Origin: an uncultured delta proteobacterium
Lineage (GTDB): Bacteria > RBG-13-61-14 > DRUE01
Assembly (NCBI GenBank): GCA_903930515.1
Contig: CAIYYW010000128.1
Span: forward strand, 1-9,043
DNA length: 9,043 nucleotides
Direction of reading: 5' to 3'
Part shown: piece by piece, positions 65-8,689 of the stretch
How the letters are laid out: every line of letters starts with the position of its first letter
Position numbering within the stretch: the first letter of the stretch is position 1
Program-made: the position numbers and the translations under genes
Notes under the pieces: model-generated
Database searches by the model: none
The model's input: the letters and a program-made list of their open reading frames with translations, nothing else
Told to the model about the DNA's origin: nothing

Positions 65-140
65 GGGCGGATGGCTCAGTTGGGAGAGCGTTGGCCTTAC
101 AAGCCGAAGGTCGCAGGTTCAAGTCCTGTTCCGCCCACCA
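65..140 (+). tRNA. tRNA-Val (anticodon TAC), CCA encoded
   Basis: The full cloverleaf can be drawn. The acceptor arm is GGGCGGA (65-71) with TCCGCCC (130-136). The D stem is GCTC (74-77) with GAGC (86-89). The anticodon stem is 91-95 with 103-107 around the loop CTTACAA, giving anticodon TAC at 98-100, which reads GUA valine codons. The T stem is 113-117 with 125-129 around TTCAAGT, with one G-U pair. The 3' CCA is encoded at 138-140. The gene is 76 bases long. An integrase remnant lies reversed against its 3' end, the usual layout when an element has used the 3' half of a tRNA gene as its attachment site. Confidence 0.97.
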
Positions 141-332: not shown

Positions 333-345
333 GGAAACAGGGCAA

Positions 346-948
346 ATGGAGACAAATCGTTACATTATATGTAAATACCGGCCAGAGGATCGGGAGGCAG
401 TGCGAAATATTTTTGCGGAGTCCGCTTTTTTGGGAGACCCGATAGAAGGGGATCGAGAGGTGGCCGCGGATTTTCCGCTTACTATACCGATCGGGAGCCG
501 GAGAGCGCCTTTGTGGCCGAGTGGGACGGCCGGGTGGTTGGGTTTCTCCTGGGATGCCTGGATACCGCGCTCAAGGAGCGCATCAATAAAACGGAACTGG
601 CCCGACCGCTTTTTTATAAAGCTTTGCGCCGCGGACATTACTTCCGGCCCAAGAGCGTCGTTAATTTTGCCCGGCGGATGTGGGGCATCGCGCAGACATT
701 CGGCATAAGAGGCATAATGCGCGGGGAAGTTAAGCGGCTGATGCACAAGATCGCGGCCATCAAGACCGAATACCCGGCGCATTGTTCCAGGCGTGCATTT
801 GGGCACTACTTCACATAATAAACAGGCGTTGCATTTATATCTGCACTGCGGATTTGAAATAATCGTAAAAATAAGAAACCGTCACACCGGCCATCTGGTT
901 CCAGACCCGCCGGTATACGGTTTGCTTCTTGCGAGGAAGCTCAACTAA
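346..948 (+). pseudogene. decayed GNAT N-acetyltransferase (frameshift plus internal deletion)
   Basis: Three pieces of one GNAT protein lie in order. Piece 1 (346 to about 474, frame 1) has the N-terminal YRPEDREAVRNIF pattern and FLGDPIE. Piece 2 (about 474-783, frame 0) continues SAYYTDREPESAFVAEWDG with RVVGFLLGC, then a helical middle region ending EYPAH. Piece 3 (784-948, frame 1 again) is VPGVHLGTTSHNKQALHLY, CGFEII and a terminal VYGLLLARKLN before TAA. In intact relatives EYPAH is followed by LHI and the Q/RxxGxG/A acetyl-CoA binding loop, roughly 35 residues before VPGVHLG. All of that is absent here. The first frame change sits at TTTT (471-474), as if one base were lost. Without the cofactor loop the product could not be a normal acetyltransferase. 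A start at 331 is also possible. The family's substrate is unknown. Confidence 0.8.
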
Positions 949-1231
949 AGGCGCTGCGGTTTCTGTAGCATACATATCACATTTTTTTCTAACCCTCATA
1001 TTCTCCTAGGACTTTCCCGCAAGCCCTGACAGCCTTTTTTGAGATGGCCTGGCATAAGTGTTCATGGTCAGGCCCGCAGTGGAATGCCTGGCTAAGTTCT
1101 CTGCTTCCTTTCCCAATGGGATTCGCTACACTCAGCCTGTCAGAAAGGGTGTTGAGGCTGACCTAAAAAGCTGTAGACTTATTGGGGGCGGGCCAGGACA
1201 AGACCGACCCGGTATTTACGAGGAGGAAGCT
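949..1231. other. non-coding stretch between the GNAT relic and the DUF362 gene
   Basis: No convincing gene is seen in these 283 bases. Two weak inverted repeats are present: GGCCTG (1046-1051) with CAGGCC (1069-1074), and TCAGCCT (1132-1138) with AGGCTGA (1155-1161). The minus strand is open without an ATG from 1162 to 989 (57 sense codons), and I do not recognise its translation. The promoter of the downstream operon should lie here. The nearest match, TTGAGG (1153-1158) and TAGACT (1174-1179), has a short 15-base spacer and is not convincing. Confidence 0.5.
1221..1226 (+). promoter_or_regulatory. ribosome binding site fixing the DUF362 start at 1232
   Basis: AGGAGG lies five bases before ATG 1232. 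The longer in-frame start at 1058 has no comparable site and would add about 58 residues with no family resemblance. This site therefore decides the start. Confidence 0.85.
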
Positions 1232-2698
1232 ATGGGGAAGAATGAGACTGGAATCGGGAAAGATACCGTCATTATCAAGCGGTTAAATGCCGACCATGGG
1301 CAGGATACCTTTACCCAATTCCTTCCTTTGAATGGCGAAATGGTAAAGGAAATCGAAAATGCCGTAAAATACATTTTTGACAGGCTGGGAGGAGCTTCTT
1401 TAATCAAATCCAGCGGCGATGTTTACATCAAGCCGAACGCGATTGATTCCAAGGCTTACACTCACACCAGACCGGAAGTGGTGGAAGCGGTTATCCGTTA
1501 CTGGTTTGATGCGGGAGCAAAAAGGGTTTTCCTTATTGAGAATTCTACGCAATGCAATATAACGCGGCTCGTTTTCGAGTTGACCGGCTATAAGAAAATA
1601 TGCAAAAAAACCGGCGCGATCCCGGTTTATCTTGATGAGGAAGATACGGTAACCCTGAAGTTTTCCGGGAAGAAATCGTCCAAAGAAGGCGACCCCACAG
1701 GTTATGACCGCACGGAATTTGAGATTTCCAAAACGGTGTCCGAAAAACTAATTTTGGGTCGAGATAAAAACCTGTACCTAAACCTCCCGAAACTTAAAAC
1801 TCATTCGATGGGAGTGGTCACCCTGGGGATCAAGAACCAATGGGGCTTCCCTCGCCACGCGCATCGAAGCGCGGATCATAATTACAACCTTCATCACAAG
1901 CTGGTGGATGTCCTTTCACATGTCCAGCCGGACATTACCATGATCGAGGGAGTGGAGGGAACCATATACGGACACTACCCAGTCCTCTCTTTTGCCGACA
2001 AGTGTATCAAGCCGTTCAAGGTGTTGATTGGAAGCCTTAATGTAGTTGCCGCCGATATTGTCGGCGCCGCGGTTTTCGGCCTGGGCATAGATGATGTTCC
2101 TCAAATAAAGCTTGCCATAGAAAGAGGGTTGGGAGGCGGCGTTCAAAAAGCCGAAGATATCAAACTCATTGGGGATTATTCCGATCTGAAAAAGTTGGAC
2201 ATCATAGGAGACTTGAAGGATTTTAACGGCAAGTATCCATCCGACCTTTACCCGCAATTCCCCGGAGATGTAACTATCATCAAAGGAAAAGAAATGGCAT
2301 GCATAGAGGGTTGCGTCAACAATCCGGTGAGTGTTTTACAAGGTCTGGCCTATGACTTCAACGGAAAGGGCGGTTGGACTCTGATCATGGGAAAAGGTTT
2401 CGATTCCGCGGTGATAGACAACATTAAAGGCCGTGTGCTGATCGCGGGTCACTGCGCGATTGATGAGGTCTCCGAGAGGCTTATCAGCCGACTGGGAAGG
2501 CGCAATGTGTATCTCAGCGGGGAGTGCAACGATTTAAGGGCGACCAGTGAATCCATGTGCCACCTCATGAGAGTCAACCCGATGAAATTGGCGCCGATAA
2601 ACCCGATTGTCGGGGCTGGTATTCTTATTATGGCTTATGGGAATCGCACTCATGCGAAACTGGTTAATCCACTATCTTACCTCTTCAAGATGCGATGA
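1232..2698 (+). CDS. DUF362 domain protein
   Basis: The product is 488 residues with no signal peptide or clear membrane segment, so it is probably cytoplasmic. The DUF362 core spans roughly residues 60-335. It opens with DVYIKPNAIDSK (63-74), contains RPEVVEAVIRYWFDAGAKRV (80-99), the conserved NLPKLKTHSMGVVTLGIKN (184-202) and the acidic stretch DITMIEGVEGT (234-244), and closes with a VVAADIVGAAVFGL block (271-284). The C-terminal part (about 345-488) carries Cys 357, 361, 408, 432 and 443. It lacks the CxxCxxC ferredoxin cluster fused to some family members. DUF362 has no settled biochemical function; several relatives are found in anaerobes. It starts a plus-strand trio with the AGPS-like enzyme and the FGGY kinase (52-base gap to the next gene), so a role in the same pathway is inferred. 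Family call is sure; function is unknown. Confidence 0.88.
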   Translation: MGKNETGIGKDTVIIKRLNADHGQDTFTQFLPLNGEMVKEIENAVKYIFDRLGGASLIKSSGDVYIKPNAIDSKAYTHTRPEVVEAVIRYWFDAGAKRVFLIENSTQCNITRLVFELTGYKKICKKTGAIPVYLDEEDTVTLKFSGKKSSKEGDPTGYDRTEFEISKTVSEKLILGRDKNLYLNLPKLKTHSMGVVTLGIKNQWGFPRHAHRSADHNYNLHHKLVDVLSHVQPDITMIEGVEGTIYGHYPVLSFADKCIKPFKVLIGSLNVVAADIVGAAVFGLGIDDVPQIKLAIERGLGGGVQKAEDIKLIGDYSDLKKLDIIGDLKDFNGKYPSDLYPQFPGDVTIIKGKEMACIEGCVNNPVSVLQGLAYDFNGKGGWTLIMGKGFDSAVIDNIKGRVLIAGHCAIDEVSERLISRLGRRNVYLSGECNDLRATSESMCHLMRVNPMKLAPINPIVGAGILIMAYGNRTHAKLVNPLSYLFKMR

Positions 2699-2750
2699 AA
2701 AACTATGAAGGTTGTTAAATACATTAAATATACGAAAGGAAGGGACAAGG

Positions 2751-4478
2751 ATGAAAAATTCCGGAAAATTCGAGCCTGATTGGAGAGAGGATGTCCCGGC
2801 GGAGGGGTCATACCGATCCATCTTCAAGTACGACCCTAAAAAGTTCAAACACCCAAACGCCGCCTGGTATGAAATGTTCAAGCAAGAGTTCGGCTTGACC
2901 GATGAGGACTTCGCGAAAAGGCAGCCGGGAGGCGATGAACAGGTTATGCTTGATCATAAGCCCGCGTTGAGCAACGATCAGGTAAATACCTTTTTCAGCA
3001 TCGTCGGGAAGGATAATGTTTCCGCTGACGGCTACAGCAGAGTCAAGTACGGCCATGGCAAATCTATCGATGAAAATCTTGGCCTTAGGAAAGGCATAGC
3101 GGGCAAGGCGCCTGATCTCGTAGTCCATCCACGGAACAAGCAAGAGGTGGGGGAAATAGTCAAGTATTGCAACTCCCAGAGGATCGCCATCATCACCTAT
3201 GGAGCGGGATCGGGCTGTGTACTGGGCATGAGAGCGAGCAAAGGCGGGATTGCCCTGGTTATGAAGACTCACCTGAACAAGGTTCTGGCTGTTAACGAGT
3301 TGAACCAGACCGCTGTAGTCCAGCCCGGAATCATTGGGCCGGATTACGAAGCGGCCCTTAATAACGCCCCCCGGCTGTTTGGCGCCAAACGCAGTTATAC
3401 CTGCGGGCATTTTCCCCAGTCCTTTGAATTAGCTTCGGTGGGCGGATGGATACTTGCCCTGGGTTCAGGACAGGCTTCCACCTATTACGGAGACGCATAC
3501 GACATCGTTCTCAGCCAGGAATATGTGACGCCGGCAGGGATCATAAAAACCCACGCCATCCCGGGGACCGCAACCGGTCCGAAAGTGAACGACATTATGA
3601 AAGGCAGTGAAGGGTCATACGGGGTTCTGGTCGAAGCGACCATGAAAATATTCAGGCATATGCCGGGTAATCGCCAGCGTTTCGCCTTCATGTTCCCGTC
3701 CTGGAAGGCCGCGGTCAACGCGTCGCGGGAGATTGTCCAGGGAGAGTTCGGCTTGCCGGCGGTGCTCAGGATATCCGACCCCGAGGAAACCGAGATCGGT
3801 CTTAAACTAAAAGGGTTCAATGACGGCATCCTTGACGCATTCTTGAGACTCCGAGGGTTTAAGCCGATGGAACGCTGCCTTTGCATCGGCACGGTTGAAG
3901 GAGAGAAGGGCTATGCCAAACATGCAAGAAAAATGGCCTCGAAAATTTCCCGTGCCCACGGCGCCATGTCGCTGACCGGTTACGCCACCAAACAGTGGGA
4001 GCATGGAAGATACTCCGATGTTCACATGAGGGAAGACCTCCTGGATTACGGCATAATCATAGACACCTTGGAATCCGGGGTAAGCTGGGAAAACCTGCAT
4101 CGGCTTCATCAGGGAGTGCGCTCGTTCGTTAAAAGCAGACCGGGCACCATATGCATGACCCATGCTTCTCATTTTTATCCCCAAGGGACCAACCTGTATT
4201 TCATTTTTTTAATGAGGCCCAAAGACCAGCTGGAGTTTTTCCAGTTCCGCAGGCAAGTGGTGGACAGGATCATCGAACATGGCGGGTCTATAAGCCATCA
4301 CCATGGAATCGGCAGGATGTTCGCCCCTTGGATGGAGGCCCATCTCGGCAGGGAGCAGATGGAAGTGCTGCGGGCGCTAAAAAAGCATTTTGATCCCCAA
4401 AATATAATGAACCCGGGCGGAAACCTGGGGCTGGATTCCCCCGATGAGGCGGACCAGGCGACCAATCAATCGCGCTGA
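2751..4478 (+). CDS. FAD-dependent oxidase of the alkylglycerone-phosphate synthase (AGPS) family
   Basis: The product is 575 residues with an N-terminal FAD-binding (PCMH-type) domain at about 118-300: APDLVVHP, the FAD loop TYGAGSGC (149-156), TCGHFPQSFELASVGGW (217-233), VTPAGII and GSEGSYGVLVEATMKI. The C-terminal cap (about 310-560) ends with the triple-His ISHHHGIG (514-521) and FDPQNIMNPGGNLG. These follow alkyl-DHAP synthase closely, including GH...SFE...GGW, the HHH, an Arg in HMRED (427) and Tyr 476 and 483 in the equivalent places. AGPS swaps the acyl chain of acyl-DHAP for a fatty alcohol, making the ether bond. Related enzymes such as D-lactate and glycolate dehydrogenases share the fold but usually lack the triple His. 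There is no organelle signal or membrane helix. ATG 2751 is chosen over 2712 because GGAAGGG (2738-2744) lies six bases upstream. The gene sits 29 bases before the kinase. The exact substrate is not proven. Confidence 0.87.
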   Translation: MKNSGKFEPDWREDVPAEGSYRSIFKYDPKKFKHPNAAWYEMFKQEFGLTDEDFAKRQPGGDEQVMLDHKPALSNDQVNTFFSIVGKDNVSADGYSRVKYGHGKSIDENLGLRKGIAGKAPDLVVHPRNKQEVGEIVKYCNSQRIAIITYGAGSGCVLGMRASKGGIALVMKTHLNKVLAVNELNQTAVVQPGIIGPDYEAALNNAPRLFGAKRSYTCGHFPQSFELASVGGWILALGSGQASTYYGDAYDIVLSQEYVTPAGIIKTHAIPGTATGPKVNDIMKGSEGSYGVLVEATMKIFRHMPGNRQRFAFMFPSWKAAVNASREIVQGEFGLPAVLRISDPEETEIGLKLKGFNDGILDAFLRLRGFKPMERCLCIGTVEGEKGYAKHARKMASKISRAHGAMSLTGYATKQWEHGRYSDVHMREDLLDYGIIIDTLESGVSWENLHRLHQGVRSFVKSRPGTICMTHASHFYPQGTNLYFIFLMRPKDQLEFFQFRRQVVDRIIEHGGSISHHHGIGRMFAPWMEAHLGREQMEVLRALKKHFDPQNIMNPGGNLGLDSPDEADQATNQSR

Positions 4479-4507
4479 AAGTCTTTCTGTTTCATGGAAG
4501 GGCGGAA

Positions 4508-6079
4508 ATGAAAGATTCTTCTAAACAAACCGATGAGTTGATTGTTGCCATAGACGCCGGCACGCAGTCGATCAGGGCCGCGCTGGTGGATTTAGCCGGT
4601 AATATTCACGGTCTGGTCAAGACCCCGATCGAGCCTTATTTCTCCGAGCGCCCGGGGTGGGCCGAACAACAGCCCGAATACTACTGGCAGATGTTATGTA
4701 AGACCTGTCGGAAGCTATTTGATGCCAGTGAATTTCCAAAGGACAGGGTCGTCGCAGTAACCCTGACGACTCAGCGCTCAACTTTTGTCAATGTTGACCG
4801 GGATGGCAATCCCCTTCGGCCCGCCATTGTCTGGCTGGACCAGAGGAAGGCAGGCACAAAAGGTATTATCCCGGCCTTTTCCGTTCCCGTTCTCAAGGCA
4901 TTAAGACTTTATCAATTTGTCGAGTATGTGACGGGATATTGTCGCTCAAACTGGATTCAACAGAATCAACCGGAGATCTGGGAAAAAACTTATAAATTTC
5001 TTTTTCTCTCGGGATACCTTACCTATAAAATCACCGGCGAGTTCAAGGATTCCGCCGGGAATATGATTGGGACCATCCCGTTCGATGTAAAAAAGTTTGA
5101 TTGGGCGGGCAAATGGGACCTGAAATGGAAGCTGTTCCCGATGGAGAAGGAAAAGCTTCCGGAATTGGTCAAACCAACACAGTTGCTGGGACATGTCACC
5201 AATAAGGCCGCCGAAGATACCGGCCTCCCCAAGGGCCTTCCTTTATTTGCCGCTTCAAACGACAAGGCATGTGATATTGTCGGCGCGGGCTGTCTCACCC
5301 CGGATACGGCCTGCATCAGCTTCGGCACCACCGCAACCATCAATACCCAAAACGATAAGTACATTGAACTACGCCCCTTCCTGCCTCCGTATCCATCAGC
5401 GATTCCCGGTCAGTTCTATTCTGAAGTGACGGTGGTGAGGGGGCTTTGGATGGTCTCCTGGTTCAAGCAGGAGTTCGGTCTGCAAGAGAGGCTCCAGGCG
5501 CTGGAAAAGGAAGTCGCGCCGGAGGAGTTGCTGGAAAAGCTTTTAAAGGATGTGCCGCCTGGTTCCATGGGCCTGATGTGCCAGCCATACTGGACGCCGG
5601 GACCGGAACTGGCGTCATTCACCAAGGGATCCATCATCGGGTTTGGTGATGTCCATACCAGGGCCCACTTGTATCGCTCAATCGTTGAAGGAATTGTGTT
5701 TGCCCTTAAGGAAGGCGCCGAGTTAACGGAGAAAAAAAATAAAACACCCATTACCACCATCAGGGCATCCGGGGGCGGGTCCCGGAGCGATTCGATCATG
5801 CAGATTACCGCCGATGTTTTCGGACTCCCCGTTCACAGGCCTCACACCGATGAGACCTCGGCACTGGGCGCCGCAATCGATGCCGCAGTGGGGATGAAAT
5901 TCTTCCCGGATTTCAATAAGGCGGTGAACGCCATGACCCGGGTTAAGGACATTTTTGAGCCGATAAAAAAGAATGAGCAGATTTACCAGGATCTCTACCA
6001 GAGGGCTTATCTCAAAATATACAAGCAGCTTCTGCCTTTATTCAAGGAGATTCAGGATATTACCGGCTACCCGGAATAA
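4508..6079 (+). CDS. FGGY-family carbohydrate kinase
   Basis: The product is 523 residues, the normal size for the family. It has the two actin-like domains: the phosphate loop AIDAGTQSIRAALVD (14-28), the substrate segment IVWLDQRK (107-114), the catalytic-base motif ASNDKACDIVGAG (249-261, Asp 252), the second phosphate loop SFGTTATI (271-278) and the adenosine motif ASGGGSRSDSIMQI (420-433). The family phosphorylates polyols and sugars with ATP in the cytoplasm. Glycerol kinases carry QRET in the first substrate loop; here it is QRST (89-92), so the Glu that contacts glycerol is lost and the substrate may not be glycerol. GGAAGGG (4496-4502) lies five bases before the ATG. It is the third gene of the DUF362/AGPS-like trio. 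Possible substrates are dihydroxyacetone, a pentulose or another polyol. Family is certain; substrate is open. Confidence 0.9.
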   Translation: MKDSSKQTDELIVAIDAGTQSIRAALVDLAGNIHGLVKTPIEPYFSERPGWAEQQPEYYWQMLCKTCRKLFDASEFPKDRVVAVTLTTQRSTFVNVDRDGNPLRPAIVWLDQRKAGTKGIIPAFSVPVLKALRLYQFVEYVTGYCRSNWIQQNQPEIWEKTYKFLFLSGYLTYKITGEFKDSAGNMIGTIPFDVKKFDWAGKWDLKWKLFPMEKEKLPELVKPTQLLGHVTNKAAEDTGLPKGLPLFAASNDKACDIVGAGCLTPDTACISFGTTATINTQNDKYIELRPFLPPYPSAIPGQFYSEVTVVRGLWMVSWFKQEFGLQERLQALEKEVAPEELLEKLLKDVPPGSMGLMCQPYWTPGPELASFTKGSIIGFGDVHTRAHLYRSIVEGIVFALKEGAELTEKKNKTPITTIRASGGGSRSDSIMQITADVFGLPVHRPHTDETSALGAAIDAAVGMKFFPDFNKAVNAMTRVKDIFEPIKKNEQIYQDLYQRAYLKIYKQLLPLFKEIQDITGYPE

Positions 6080-6148: not shown

Positions 6149-7369
6149 TCAACTATCATGCTCCCCTTGCCGGATCTCATCAAGCGTTTCAAAAATTGTG
6201 CGGATGTTGGCAAGGGGCATGGTGTACTGCATCTCATGGGAGGTGGCCAGCACATGCCGGCCGTTCCTGCCGCCTATGCGGTAGGACCGGAGGATGTCCG
6301 CTTTGAGCTGCTCCGGCGTCCAGCTTTCTCCCTGTTGAATGTCAATGCCGGTGACAAATGTCAGGCGACCGCCGAATTCACGGTGGGCTTTTTCAAAATC
6401 ATTGCCTGATTTGGGCTGAAAGGCTTGCAGGAGGTCCAATCCCGCGTCCACATAATCCTTAAGGTGAGTCATCTGATACCCGCATGAATGGAGCAGGGCC
6501 AGCGCGCCTTCCTCATGGGCGGCATCAATGAGCCGTTTAAGGCCGGGATAGATAAACTCCTTCCACATTCGCGGTGAAAGAAAGGTGGCGTTGTCATAAC
6601 CGTAATCATCCCCGATAAAGGCTATGTCCGCACCGGCGCGGACGGAATTTACCAGCAACTCCACCTGGTAATCGATCCATTTTATCAGAAACGCCTTCAT
6701 TTCTTCGGGATATTCGCAAAGATAGAGTATGTATTTTTCAAAGCCGAATAAAAAGTTGCTGGGAAAGTCCTCCGGCCCGAAAATTTCCGTGGCAATGGAG
6801 TGGCCGGGAAACTGTTTTCGGTACCGGCGGAATACATTGTAGTAGGATTGCTTTTTCGGGTCCGGCAGTTGGTAGCCCTTTAGCGCCTCAATATCCTTTA
6901 TTGCCGGCTTGTGCATGTCAGGATAGATGCCGCCAAGGGCTATGTCAGTACCGAACATGTCCTTCATTTTGAACTGTTCGCCGAAAAACAGGGACGGCAG
7001 GTCAAGTTTGGCAAAGTGCCATGGCGTTGCCGCGACTGCAAGAATAATGTCCGACCCCAACTCCGAAGCATAGGTATCGGCGTAGTTAAAGGAATGGTAG
7101 TCTAAAAGAAGCGGCAACGCCCGCCAAATGCGAGCGGCGTCGAGTTCCCCGCCCTTGATAAACCGCTTCCACGCGAAGCGCGCCAGCATGTTTAACCCTT
7201 GATCCCGAGCCGGCTTGTATTCGGCAATGACCTTGCAAGCCGCATGCGGATTCAGCCAGATATAATAAGGCACATGGTCCACCGGCTGTCCTTTAACCGT
7301 GGCCCAGATTCGTTCACGGGGCGTCATCTCCCCGGTTGGTTGTGTCGGTCTGACCGGTATCGCTGTCAT
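6149..7369 (-). CDS. uroporphyrinogen decarboxylase (URO-D)/MtaA-like protein
   Basis: The product is 406 residues with a TIM-barrel URO-D-like pattern: MTPRERIWATVKGQPVDHVP near the N-terminus (15-34), FIGDDYGYDNATFLSPRMWK (251-270), HSCG (294-297), VDAGLDLLQAFQPK (307-320) and VTGIDIQQ (339-346). True HemE is shorter and carries other N-terminal motifs. HSCG instead recalls the zinc ligands of the cobalamin methyltransferases MtaA and MtbA, which need a third ligand (a Cys in MtaA) nearer the C-terminus. The block at 367-381 reads GRNGRHVLATSHEMQ and has no Cys. Many such proteins lie in sugar-use loci of anaerobes and have no assigned reaction. The start at 7369 is supported by GGGGGTGA upstream, one mismatch from the anti-SD complement. 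It is the last gene of a minus-strand operon, 66 bases after the cupin gene. A methyl-transfer role is only a guess. Confidence 0.82.
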   Translation of the reverse strand: MTAIPVRPTQPTGEMTPRERIWATVKGQPVDHVPYYIWLNPHAACKVIAEYKPARDQGLNMLARFAWKRFIKGGELDAARIWRALPLLLDYHSFNYADTYASELGSDIILAVAATPWHFAKLDLPSLFFGEQFKMKDMFGTDIALGGIYPDMHKPAIKDIEALKGYQLPDPKKQSYYNVFRRYRKQFPGHSIATEIFGPEDFPSNFLFGFEKYILYLCEYPEEMKAFLIKWIDYQVELLVNSVRAGADIAFIGDDYGYDNATFLSPRMWKEFIYPGLKRLIDAAHEEGALALLHSCGYQMTHLKDYVDAGLDLLQAFQPKSGNDFEKAHREFGGRLTFVTGIDIQQGESWTPEQLKADILRSYRIGGRNGRHVLATSHEMQYTMPLANIRTIFETLDEIRQGEHDS

Positions 7370-7435: not shown

Positions 7436-8689
7436 TTATTCCCTGGGCCCGATGGCGCGAGTTCCGTCCACTGCCTGGATATCAAGGTCCGGGTTTCCCG
7501 GGCCGAAGTGTTTGAGCATGACAATGGGATCCGCGGTGGAGGGGTTAGTGATTTTCACCCCTTCCCTGGCCGCGGCTTCATTCACGAAGCACTCGTCGTT
7601 GGTCATCTGGCCGAAGCGGATCATCGTGGGGGTCTCTATGTCCCAGACGCCCATCCTGCCGTGGCCCTGCATCATGATCATCCCGTATGCCGCGCGGTCG
7701 CGGATAATCACCGTCCGGCCCGGAAGCACGGTCAGCTCTTTGGCGCTGAAAGCCGTTGACTTGTAGCAAATCCAGTTGTCTATGTAGCCCTCGGACTTCA
7801 TCTCTTCCAGGGGCTTGACCGGCTTCGGCCTCATCAGCCGATGCTTGGCGAAGTCCGGGTCAAGGTTCAAGTCCCAGTGGATCACTTCCAGGAGGTAGTC
7901 TATGTCGCCTATTTTATCAGGAGGAGTGTCCTTCCACAGGAGGTTTTCAGGAACGATCTGGTCGCCCGTCAGGGACTGGAACATGCCGAAGACATCAGAC
8001 GCTTTCTGGGGCTCGTAGGTGCAGAGGCTGCCGGGCGCGTGCAAGATGCCCGGAGGGACATCCCAGCCCGTGCCCGGCTCTAGCCGGTAAGCTTTGGAGA
8101 TGTTGGTGATCTTGTTATCTCCCTTTGCGAAGTTGGCGAGGCACTCCCTGACCTGCGCTTTGGTCGTGCCGGGCTCAAAGCCGAAGAAGGTATATGGGAA
8201 ATCCCCGCCGTAGTTGTTCACCTGCACGGGAAAGAAGTAGGCCTCCGGCTTGCCCAACTGTCCAACCCGGGCCGCATGCTCATCACGATGGTGGACATGG
8301 TGCGGGAGCGCACCCTTGTTGTCAAAGAACTTGGAGTACATCGGCCAGCGGCCGTGCTCGCCCCAGATGCGGTCGCCGATGATCTGGCCCTTCATGTGGG
8401 TGATCGCGTCTCTCAGCAGGATCTTTTCCGTCTTGACGCCATCATCAAACACAATGAAACTCAGGCCCTCGTCCGGGCTGGTCTTCGGCCCGTTGTCCGC
8501 CGGCGTTGTGGACGAAAACCATCGCTCGTCAATCCCGCCACGGTCGCCGCCAAGGGCGTAGTAGTCATCCGGGTGGAGCTTGATCCGCCTCCCCGGCACA
8601 CAGAACGACCTCGGCACCCAGGCCGGAGCCAGCCTGACTATCCCCTTGCCCTGCTCCAGGGCAAGTTCACTTAGGCGTCCAGCTTCCAT
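7436..8689 (-). CDS. two-cupin protein related to type I phosphomannose isomerase
   Basis: The product is 417 residues. The first cupin holds a dense ligand set HHVHHRDEHA (130-139), KPEAYFF (148-153) and ILHAPGS (215-221). This is the His/Glu/His arrangement of the zinc site in type I mannose-6-phosphate isomerases (QxH, KPE, HA). WDVPPGILHAPGS sits at the expected second half of the barrel. A second cupin-like half runs from about 310 to 400 with KELTVLPGRTVII and QGHG, ending with the conserved LKHFGPGNPDL. The product probably isomerises a sugar or sugar phosphate in the cytoplasm; no substrate can be read from sequence. AAGGAG lies six bases before the ATG (plus-strand 8696-8701). The stop of the upstream gene is only 18 bases away, so the two are co-transcribed. 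Close relatives that I recall are uncharacterised proteins of Planctomycetota and Lentisphaerota genomes. It is not a canonical ManA. Confidence 0.8.
   Translation of the reverse strand: MEAGRLSELALEQGKGIVRLAPAWVPRSFCVPGRRIKLHPDDYYALGGDRGGIDERWFSSTTPADNGPKTSPDEGLSFIVFDDGVKTEKILLRDAITHMKGQIIGDRIWGEHGRWPMYSKFFDNKGALPHHVHHRDEHAARVGQLGKPEAYFFPVQVNNYGGDFPYTFFGFEPGTTKAQVRECLANFAKGDNKITNISKAYRLEPGTGWDVPPGILHAPGSLCTYEPQKASDVFGMFQSLTGDQIVPENLLWKDTPPDKIGDIDYLLEVIHWDLNLDPDFAKHRLMRPKPVKPLEEMKSEGYIDNWICYKSTAFSAKELTVLPGRTVIIRDRAAYGMIMMQGHGRMGVWDIETPTMIRFGQMTNDECFVNEAAAREGVKITNPSTADPIVMLKHFGPGNPDLDIQAVDGTRAIGPRE

Follow-up and report, generated by a model that had tools for sequence, protein, structure and literature searches.

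Layout of the locus

The stretch of DNA analysed here (9,043 nucleotides; 'the window') corresponds to bases 1–9043 of contig C128 in a source genome of 3.65 Mb, assembled in 401 contigs and 93.5% complete. It carries three genes on the same strand: the first (1232–2698, +) encodes a DUF362 protein of 488 amino acids (PF04015, E 1e-30), the second (2751–4478, +) an AGPS-like FAD enzyme of 575 amino acids (PF01565 and PF02913), and the third (4508–6079, +) an FGGY carbohydrate/polyol kinase of 523 amino acids (PF00370 and PF02782). Open reading frames and Pfam matches bear out the positions and families that a preliminary description of the window had given for this co-directional trio, in which 52 and 29 bases separate the genes; they likewise agree with its remark that the window holds no acyltransferase or fatty acyl-CoA reductase gene. 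The DUF362 and AGPS-like frames both open with ATG, a longer frame being possible for the latter from a TTG at 2712. A purine-rich, Shine-Dalgarno-like stretch lies ahead of each of the three starts; that before the DUF362 ATG (1218–1231, +), read directly from the sequence, includes GAGGAGG. Scans of the window for promoters and terminators gave no excess over shuffled sequences.

Working outwards from the operon, an Rfam search of the window returned a tRNA only, the tRNA-Val (tac) found 5' of the operon at 65–140 (+). Between the two, at 336–942 (+), are the remnants of a GNAT acetyltransferase, spread over at least two frames; the same-genus genome G001 has an intact relative (L140, 3832–4485), and a second genome, G002, also has a match. 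On the opposite strand, and convergent with the operon, 6149–7369 (-) encodes a URO-D/MtaA-like protein, to which two open reading frames that follow the operon at another locus (L029) appear by eye to be related. Beyond this, 7436–8689 (-) encodes a protein of 417 amino acids for which Pfam gives no match at E 1.

The AGPS-like protein

The top PDB match of the middle protein is Dictyostelium AGPS (2uuu, E 1.6e-71; next family 5.6e-24), in line with the assignment already made for it. Its AF2 model (pLDDT 80.7) leads to the same family: rows 1–37 of a Foldseek search are all AGPS, and a VIA comparison with AGPS gives a Z of 35.7 and an rmsd of 2.2 over 504 residues, starting from model residue 21, as against a Z of 30 for LDHD-type matches, in which the alignment begins only at model residue 73. 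The predicted structure is thus a VAO-type fold that includes the N-terminal region of AGPS, absent in LDHD. More widely, the VAO/PCMH relatives in the fold search are mostly oxidases and dehydrogenases.

Compared with the known AGPS structures (2uuu, 4bby), the protein shares, by alignment, residues R419, R515, S367 and Y578 together with the HHH motif; the catalytic R419, Y578 and HHH are retained throughout its clade, the first two being the positions altered in the AGPS mutants R419H and Y578F (PDB 4bc7 and 4bca). It differs from AGPS in its identity of just 28–33%, in a Gln that replaces Asp303 across the window's clade, in the lack of GNPAT or FAR partner genes in the window set, and in its place in the tree, where the clade stands alone at 99/99, apart from eukaryotic AGPS, although the deep branching order is weakly supported and the branches are long. 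Sequence and predicted fold, taken together, mark the protein as AGPS-like, but as a member of a clade of its own.

The FGGY kinase

Both the FGGY_N and FGGY_C domains of the kinase exceed the Pfam cut-off, with the catalytic Asp aligned. It does not reach the cut-off of either NCBIfam equivalog compared: XylB (xylulokinase) is the top-scoring, at 278 bits with a cut-off of 380, and GlpK scores 159 bits with a cut-off of 590. GlpK's QR motif and catalytic Asp are retained; at the position of Glu84, however, the window kinase has Ser, and the relatives shown have Ser, Ala, Leu, His or Asp. As Glu84 contacts a glycerol hydroxyl in GlpK structures, its loss would suit a substituted glycerol as substrate, and the presence of QR without Glu84 is compatible with a substituted hydroxyl on whatever the kinase phosphorylates.

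The DUF362 protein

In the DUF362 tree, the window's protein and 12 others encoded beside AGPS-like genes (n = 13) form a single clade (100/100), within which the window protein is 38–43% identical to its fellow members, as compared with 24–28% to other DUF362 proteins. The sole exception is the DUF362 protein of locus L066, which is also in an AGPS-type operon yet falls outside the clade. Because these members were found via AGPS, the clade is no proof that such proteins are restricted to AGPS operons.

Conserved residues comprise H191, K201 and H216, and the cysteines C357, C361 and C432. An hhalign comparison of a wider DUF362 set with LarA gives an E of 4e-5 (profile controls, with the operon's other families, give 0.1 or worse) and places H191 and K201 on LarA H174 and K184, with H216 near H200. 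The H..K..H spacing is 10/15 in DUF362 and 10/16 in LarA. The profile of the AGPS-linked members alone, with an effective diversity of 1.8, fails to pick up LarA (E 0.095), and the AF2 model built from 13 sequences is of low confidence (pLDDT 49.7); a fold search with it yields nothing significant, the first-ranked entry being a LarA at E 0.015. DUF362 and LarA, the latter a family of nickel-pincer racemases, are placed in one Pfam clan, CL0471 (PMC11770544). Profile comparison and motif together indicate a remote homology to the LarA superfamily, and a nickel-pincer cofactor is possible. Saying this, LarA differs in that it acts on 2-hydroxy acids (PMC11770544).

Conservation of the gene set

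The preliminary description had asked whether the genes stay together across genomes. With the AGPS-like protein alone as query, and neighbouring genes disregarded, a scan of 84,980 species (one genome per species) found 58 relatives at 49–80% identity. An FGGY kinase matching that of the window is encoded no more than 5 kb from the AGPS-like gene in 40 of these 58; for a GlpD-type glycerol-3-phosphate dehydrogenase (PF01266 and PF16901) the figure is 35, for a FadR/GntR regulator 29 and for DUF362 13. At the 37 loci whose flanks reach 2.5 kb or more on each side, the four genes number 28, 25, 21 and 7, respectively. Since the source genome contains 8 FGGY matches in its 3.65 Mb, an estimated 2–3% of random places would have one nearby, and the linkage of AGPS-like gene and kinase is far above chance.

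The commonest gene order is GntR-GlpD-AGPS-(DUF362)-FGGY, seen in full or in part in metagenome-assembled genomes of Desulfobacterota, Myxococcota, Planctomycetota, Chloroflexota, Nitrospirota, Spirochaetota and Bacteroidota; the gene set is kept together in many anaerobic bacteria, and the linkage anticipated for the window's genes holds across phyla. The suggested connection to glycerol phosphate and DHAP is strengthened by the GlpD-type gene of most relatives, which the window itself lacks: here DUF362 stands in front and no GlpD lies beside the genes, whereas the near relatives L014, L015 and L016 do have one. DUF362 was considered as a general, straight substitute for GlpD, an idea dropped because several loci have both.

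Phyla are intermixed in the AGPS-like clade, and a protein 78% identical to that of the window is found in G022, a genome that has only its domain in common with the source genome. The same-genus genome G001 has no close AGPS-like match but does have a DUF362 ortholog; this lies at the end of a contig (L138, G001:C685), where the assembly could have missed the AGPS gene. Such a patchy distribution of the AGPS-like gene suits a horizontally moved module. Immediately upstream of this ortholog, within which the contig ends, are an enoyl-CoA hydratase and an acyl-CoA dehydrogenase gene (1148–3739).

Looking further afield, GlpD, AGPS and FGGY genes occur together in Novosphingobium (plasmid record), a TetR/GlpD/AGPS/YegS lipid kinase set in Streptomyces (plasmid record), with its TetR/GlpD part in Nonomuraea, and a LacI/AGPS/FGGY/ABC importer/glycerol dehydrogenase set in plasmid records of Roseibium, Paracoccus and Shinella and, by sequence, in Sinorhizobium K101. 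Locus L059 from Spirochaetales combines GlpA-like, FGGY and AGPS genes, the GlpA-like protein taking the role of GlpD. Judged from the encoded families, a common logic appears to recur, in full or in part: an AGPS-like enzyme, a kinase and a means of oxidising C2. Two further loci (L044, 13372–17345, and L046) have a BMP/PnrA-type ABC importer close to the kinase, AGPS-like and GlpD genes; in the window's clade, a recurrent importer was sought and none was found. Elsewhere, AGPS-like genes adjoin CoA-transferase genes on plasmids of Roseovarius (L171, 4546–7409) and Bradyrhizobium (L073, 5410–8509).

A candidate catabolic pathway

We suggest, at a level of confidence a little short of even, that the operon is a version of a horizontally spread catabolic set for O-substituted glycerols, most likely 1-O-alkylglycerols derived from ether lipids. 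The FGGY kinase would phosphorylate the free primary hydroxyl of X-O-glycerol and a glycerol-phosphate dehydrogenase would oxidise C2, generating X-O-DHAP; in either order, phosphorylation and oxidation converge on this compound, the equivalent of the AGPS product, which makes the catabolic direction the best reading. AGPS is able to act in reverse on its own product, and by the chemistry of the family the AGPS-like flavoenzyme could handle X-O-DHAP likewise: a flavin N5-DHAP adduct would form, X-OH would depart, and water or a carboxylate would free DHAP or acyl-DHAP. DHAP could then enter glycolysis, and a fatty alcohol β-oxidation. More speculatively, DUF362 may act as a racemase or epimerase on the C2 carbinol and so make both stereoisomers usable. 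The nature of the substrate (alkyl or another group), the direction of the pathway and the part played by DUF362 are all inferred.

Several signs point the same way, namely the FadR-type regulators of the window's clade, the importers beside the set in some lineages, the β-oxidation genes that precede the G001 DUF362 ortholog, and the strong co-activation of PA3026-PA3024 in Pseudomonas aeruginosa with the phospholipase C PA3464, as described in PMC8151288. Against it stand the mixed functions of AGPS-like relatives, the Gln at the Asp303 position and the missing GlpD: most relatives would use the GlpD of their operon for C2 oxidation, whereas in the window the step would have to come from elsewhere, perhaps from GlpA/GlpB at C173, or from DUF362, and the source genome has just one recognised DAO_C protein, a fragment of GlpA at the edge of a contig. 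PMC8151288 also reports a deletion of PA3026-PA3024 without phenotype on the substrates tried.

The preliminary description allowed that the set could feed ether-lipid synthesis. On this reading DHAP would come from the kinase and GlpD and be acylated by an acyltransferase encoded elsewhere, and the AGPS-like enzyme would exchange the acyl for an alkyl chain. The AGPS fold and residues agree with this, the source genome has three PF01553 acyltransferases above cut-off, and a synthetic scheme is the one drawn for PA3026-PA3024 in PMC8151288. Yet we now consider it unlikely, since synthesis would call for an acyltransferase and a reductase as well as for DHAP and a fatty alcohol; DHAP can be obtained without the kinase and GlpD, which add nothing to such a route and look instead like a catabolic pair. 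GNPAT or another DHAP acyltransferase, acyl-CoA reductase and alkyl-DHAP reductase were none of them seen to recur beside the genes in relatives, and the importers, the FadR/LacI/TetR regulators and the separation of the window's clade from eukaryotic AGPS speak against synthesis. The source genome also has several matches to PF07993, a family that is matched in all 14 control genomes too, and none to PF09989, sought as a marker of the PlsA/Ger-type ether route; that route is therefore not seen.

Less likely again is catabolism, by the same three-step logic, of a soluble, non-lipid conjugate such as an aryl- or glycosyl-glycerol or a conjugate of another polyol; the sugar-type and BMP-type ABC importers of Alphaproteobacteria and L044 would fit, as would the xylulokinase model as the kinase's top score (albeit below cut-off), but the window's clade mostly has FadR/GntR with no recurrent importer, and Streptomyces employs a YegS lipid kinase. 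We give the lowest probability of the three to the AGPS-like protein being a simple FAD-dependent dehydrogenase that oxidises a hydroxy acid or polyol phosphate and passes the electrons to DUF362 or some other protein. Such a role is conceivable because AGPS-like relatives are functionally mixed, with CCG Fe-S and CoA-transferase neighbours, and it draws on the prevalence of oxidases and dehydrogenases in the VAO/PCMH family and on the conserved cysteines of DUF362; the nearest protein by sequence and fold is, however, AGPS rather than LDHD or GlcD, and most relatives already have a dedicated GlpD for the oxidation. The CCG neighbour is found in the source genome itself, where L086 (G000:C125, 2–3702, -) encodes a tandem AGPS-like pair with the motif SHHHGIG and, next to it, a CCG/4Fe-4S protein, an arrangement that resembles a dehydrogenase complex.

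Relation to known systems

Whilst the preliminary description put the pathway forward as a candidate undescribed one, the AGPS-like/GlpD/FGGY core has already been described once: in PMC8151288, PA3026-PA3024 form one operon of the GliR regulon with a proposed role in glycerolipid metabolism and, compared by description, correspond to the core of the relatives, with an FAD oxidoreductase (for which alkylglycerone phosphate is the proposed product), a GlpD homolog and an FGGY kinase. That set is accompanied by GliR, an AraC regulator, and by a YegS lipid kinase close by, and it has no DUF362; the window has DUF362, no GlpD and hence an incomplete version of the trio. It is the DUF362-bearing, GlpD-less form that is new, no account of the DUF362 version having been found in the literature searched. 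The MXAN_1676-1674 ether-lipid operon of Myxococcus xanthus is similarly led by an AGPS homolog, but its partner has the FAR and acyltransferase domains of a synthetic system (PMC9131029), in contrast to the kinase and DUF362 of the window set.

The job we propose for the window set, cleavage of alkyl-glycerol ethers, is that of AGMO, a different protein and a tetrahydrobiopterin-requiring monooxygenase, described as the sole enzyme known to do so (PMC9192799); in the open-access literature searched, we found neither an anaerobic pathway for alkylglycerol cleavage nor an oxygen-free ether-cutting enzyme. We accordingly raise, as a tentative and rather doubtful extension of the catabolic reading, an oxygen-independent cleavage of ether lipids in anaerobes, in which kinase and C2 oxidation would lead to alkyl-DHAP, the reversed AGPS homolog would free the fatty alcohol, and the LarA-clan DUF362 protein, possibly with a nickel-pincer cofactor, would handle the stereochemistry at C2 or replace GlpD. 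Ether cleavage, if true, would be of high interest, and a genetically defined candidate in anaerobes of the Smithella/Desulfobacteraceae type would make anaerobic recycling of ether lipids testable. It would also caution against taking agps homologs in metagenomes as a sign of ether-lipid synthesis (as in PMC11868695), and would give one DUF362 subfamily a defined context; DUF362 paralogs are abundant, with 12, 14 and 20 matches in the source genome, G001 and G002, respectively.
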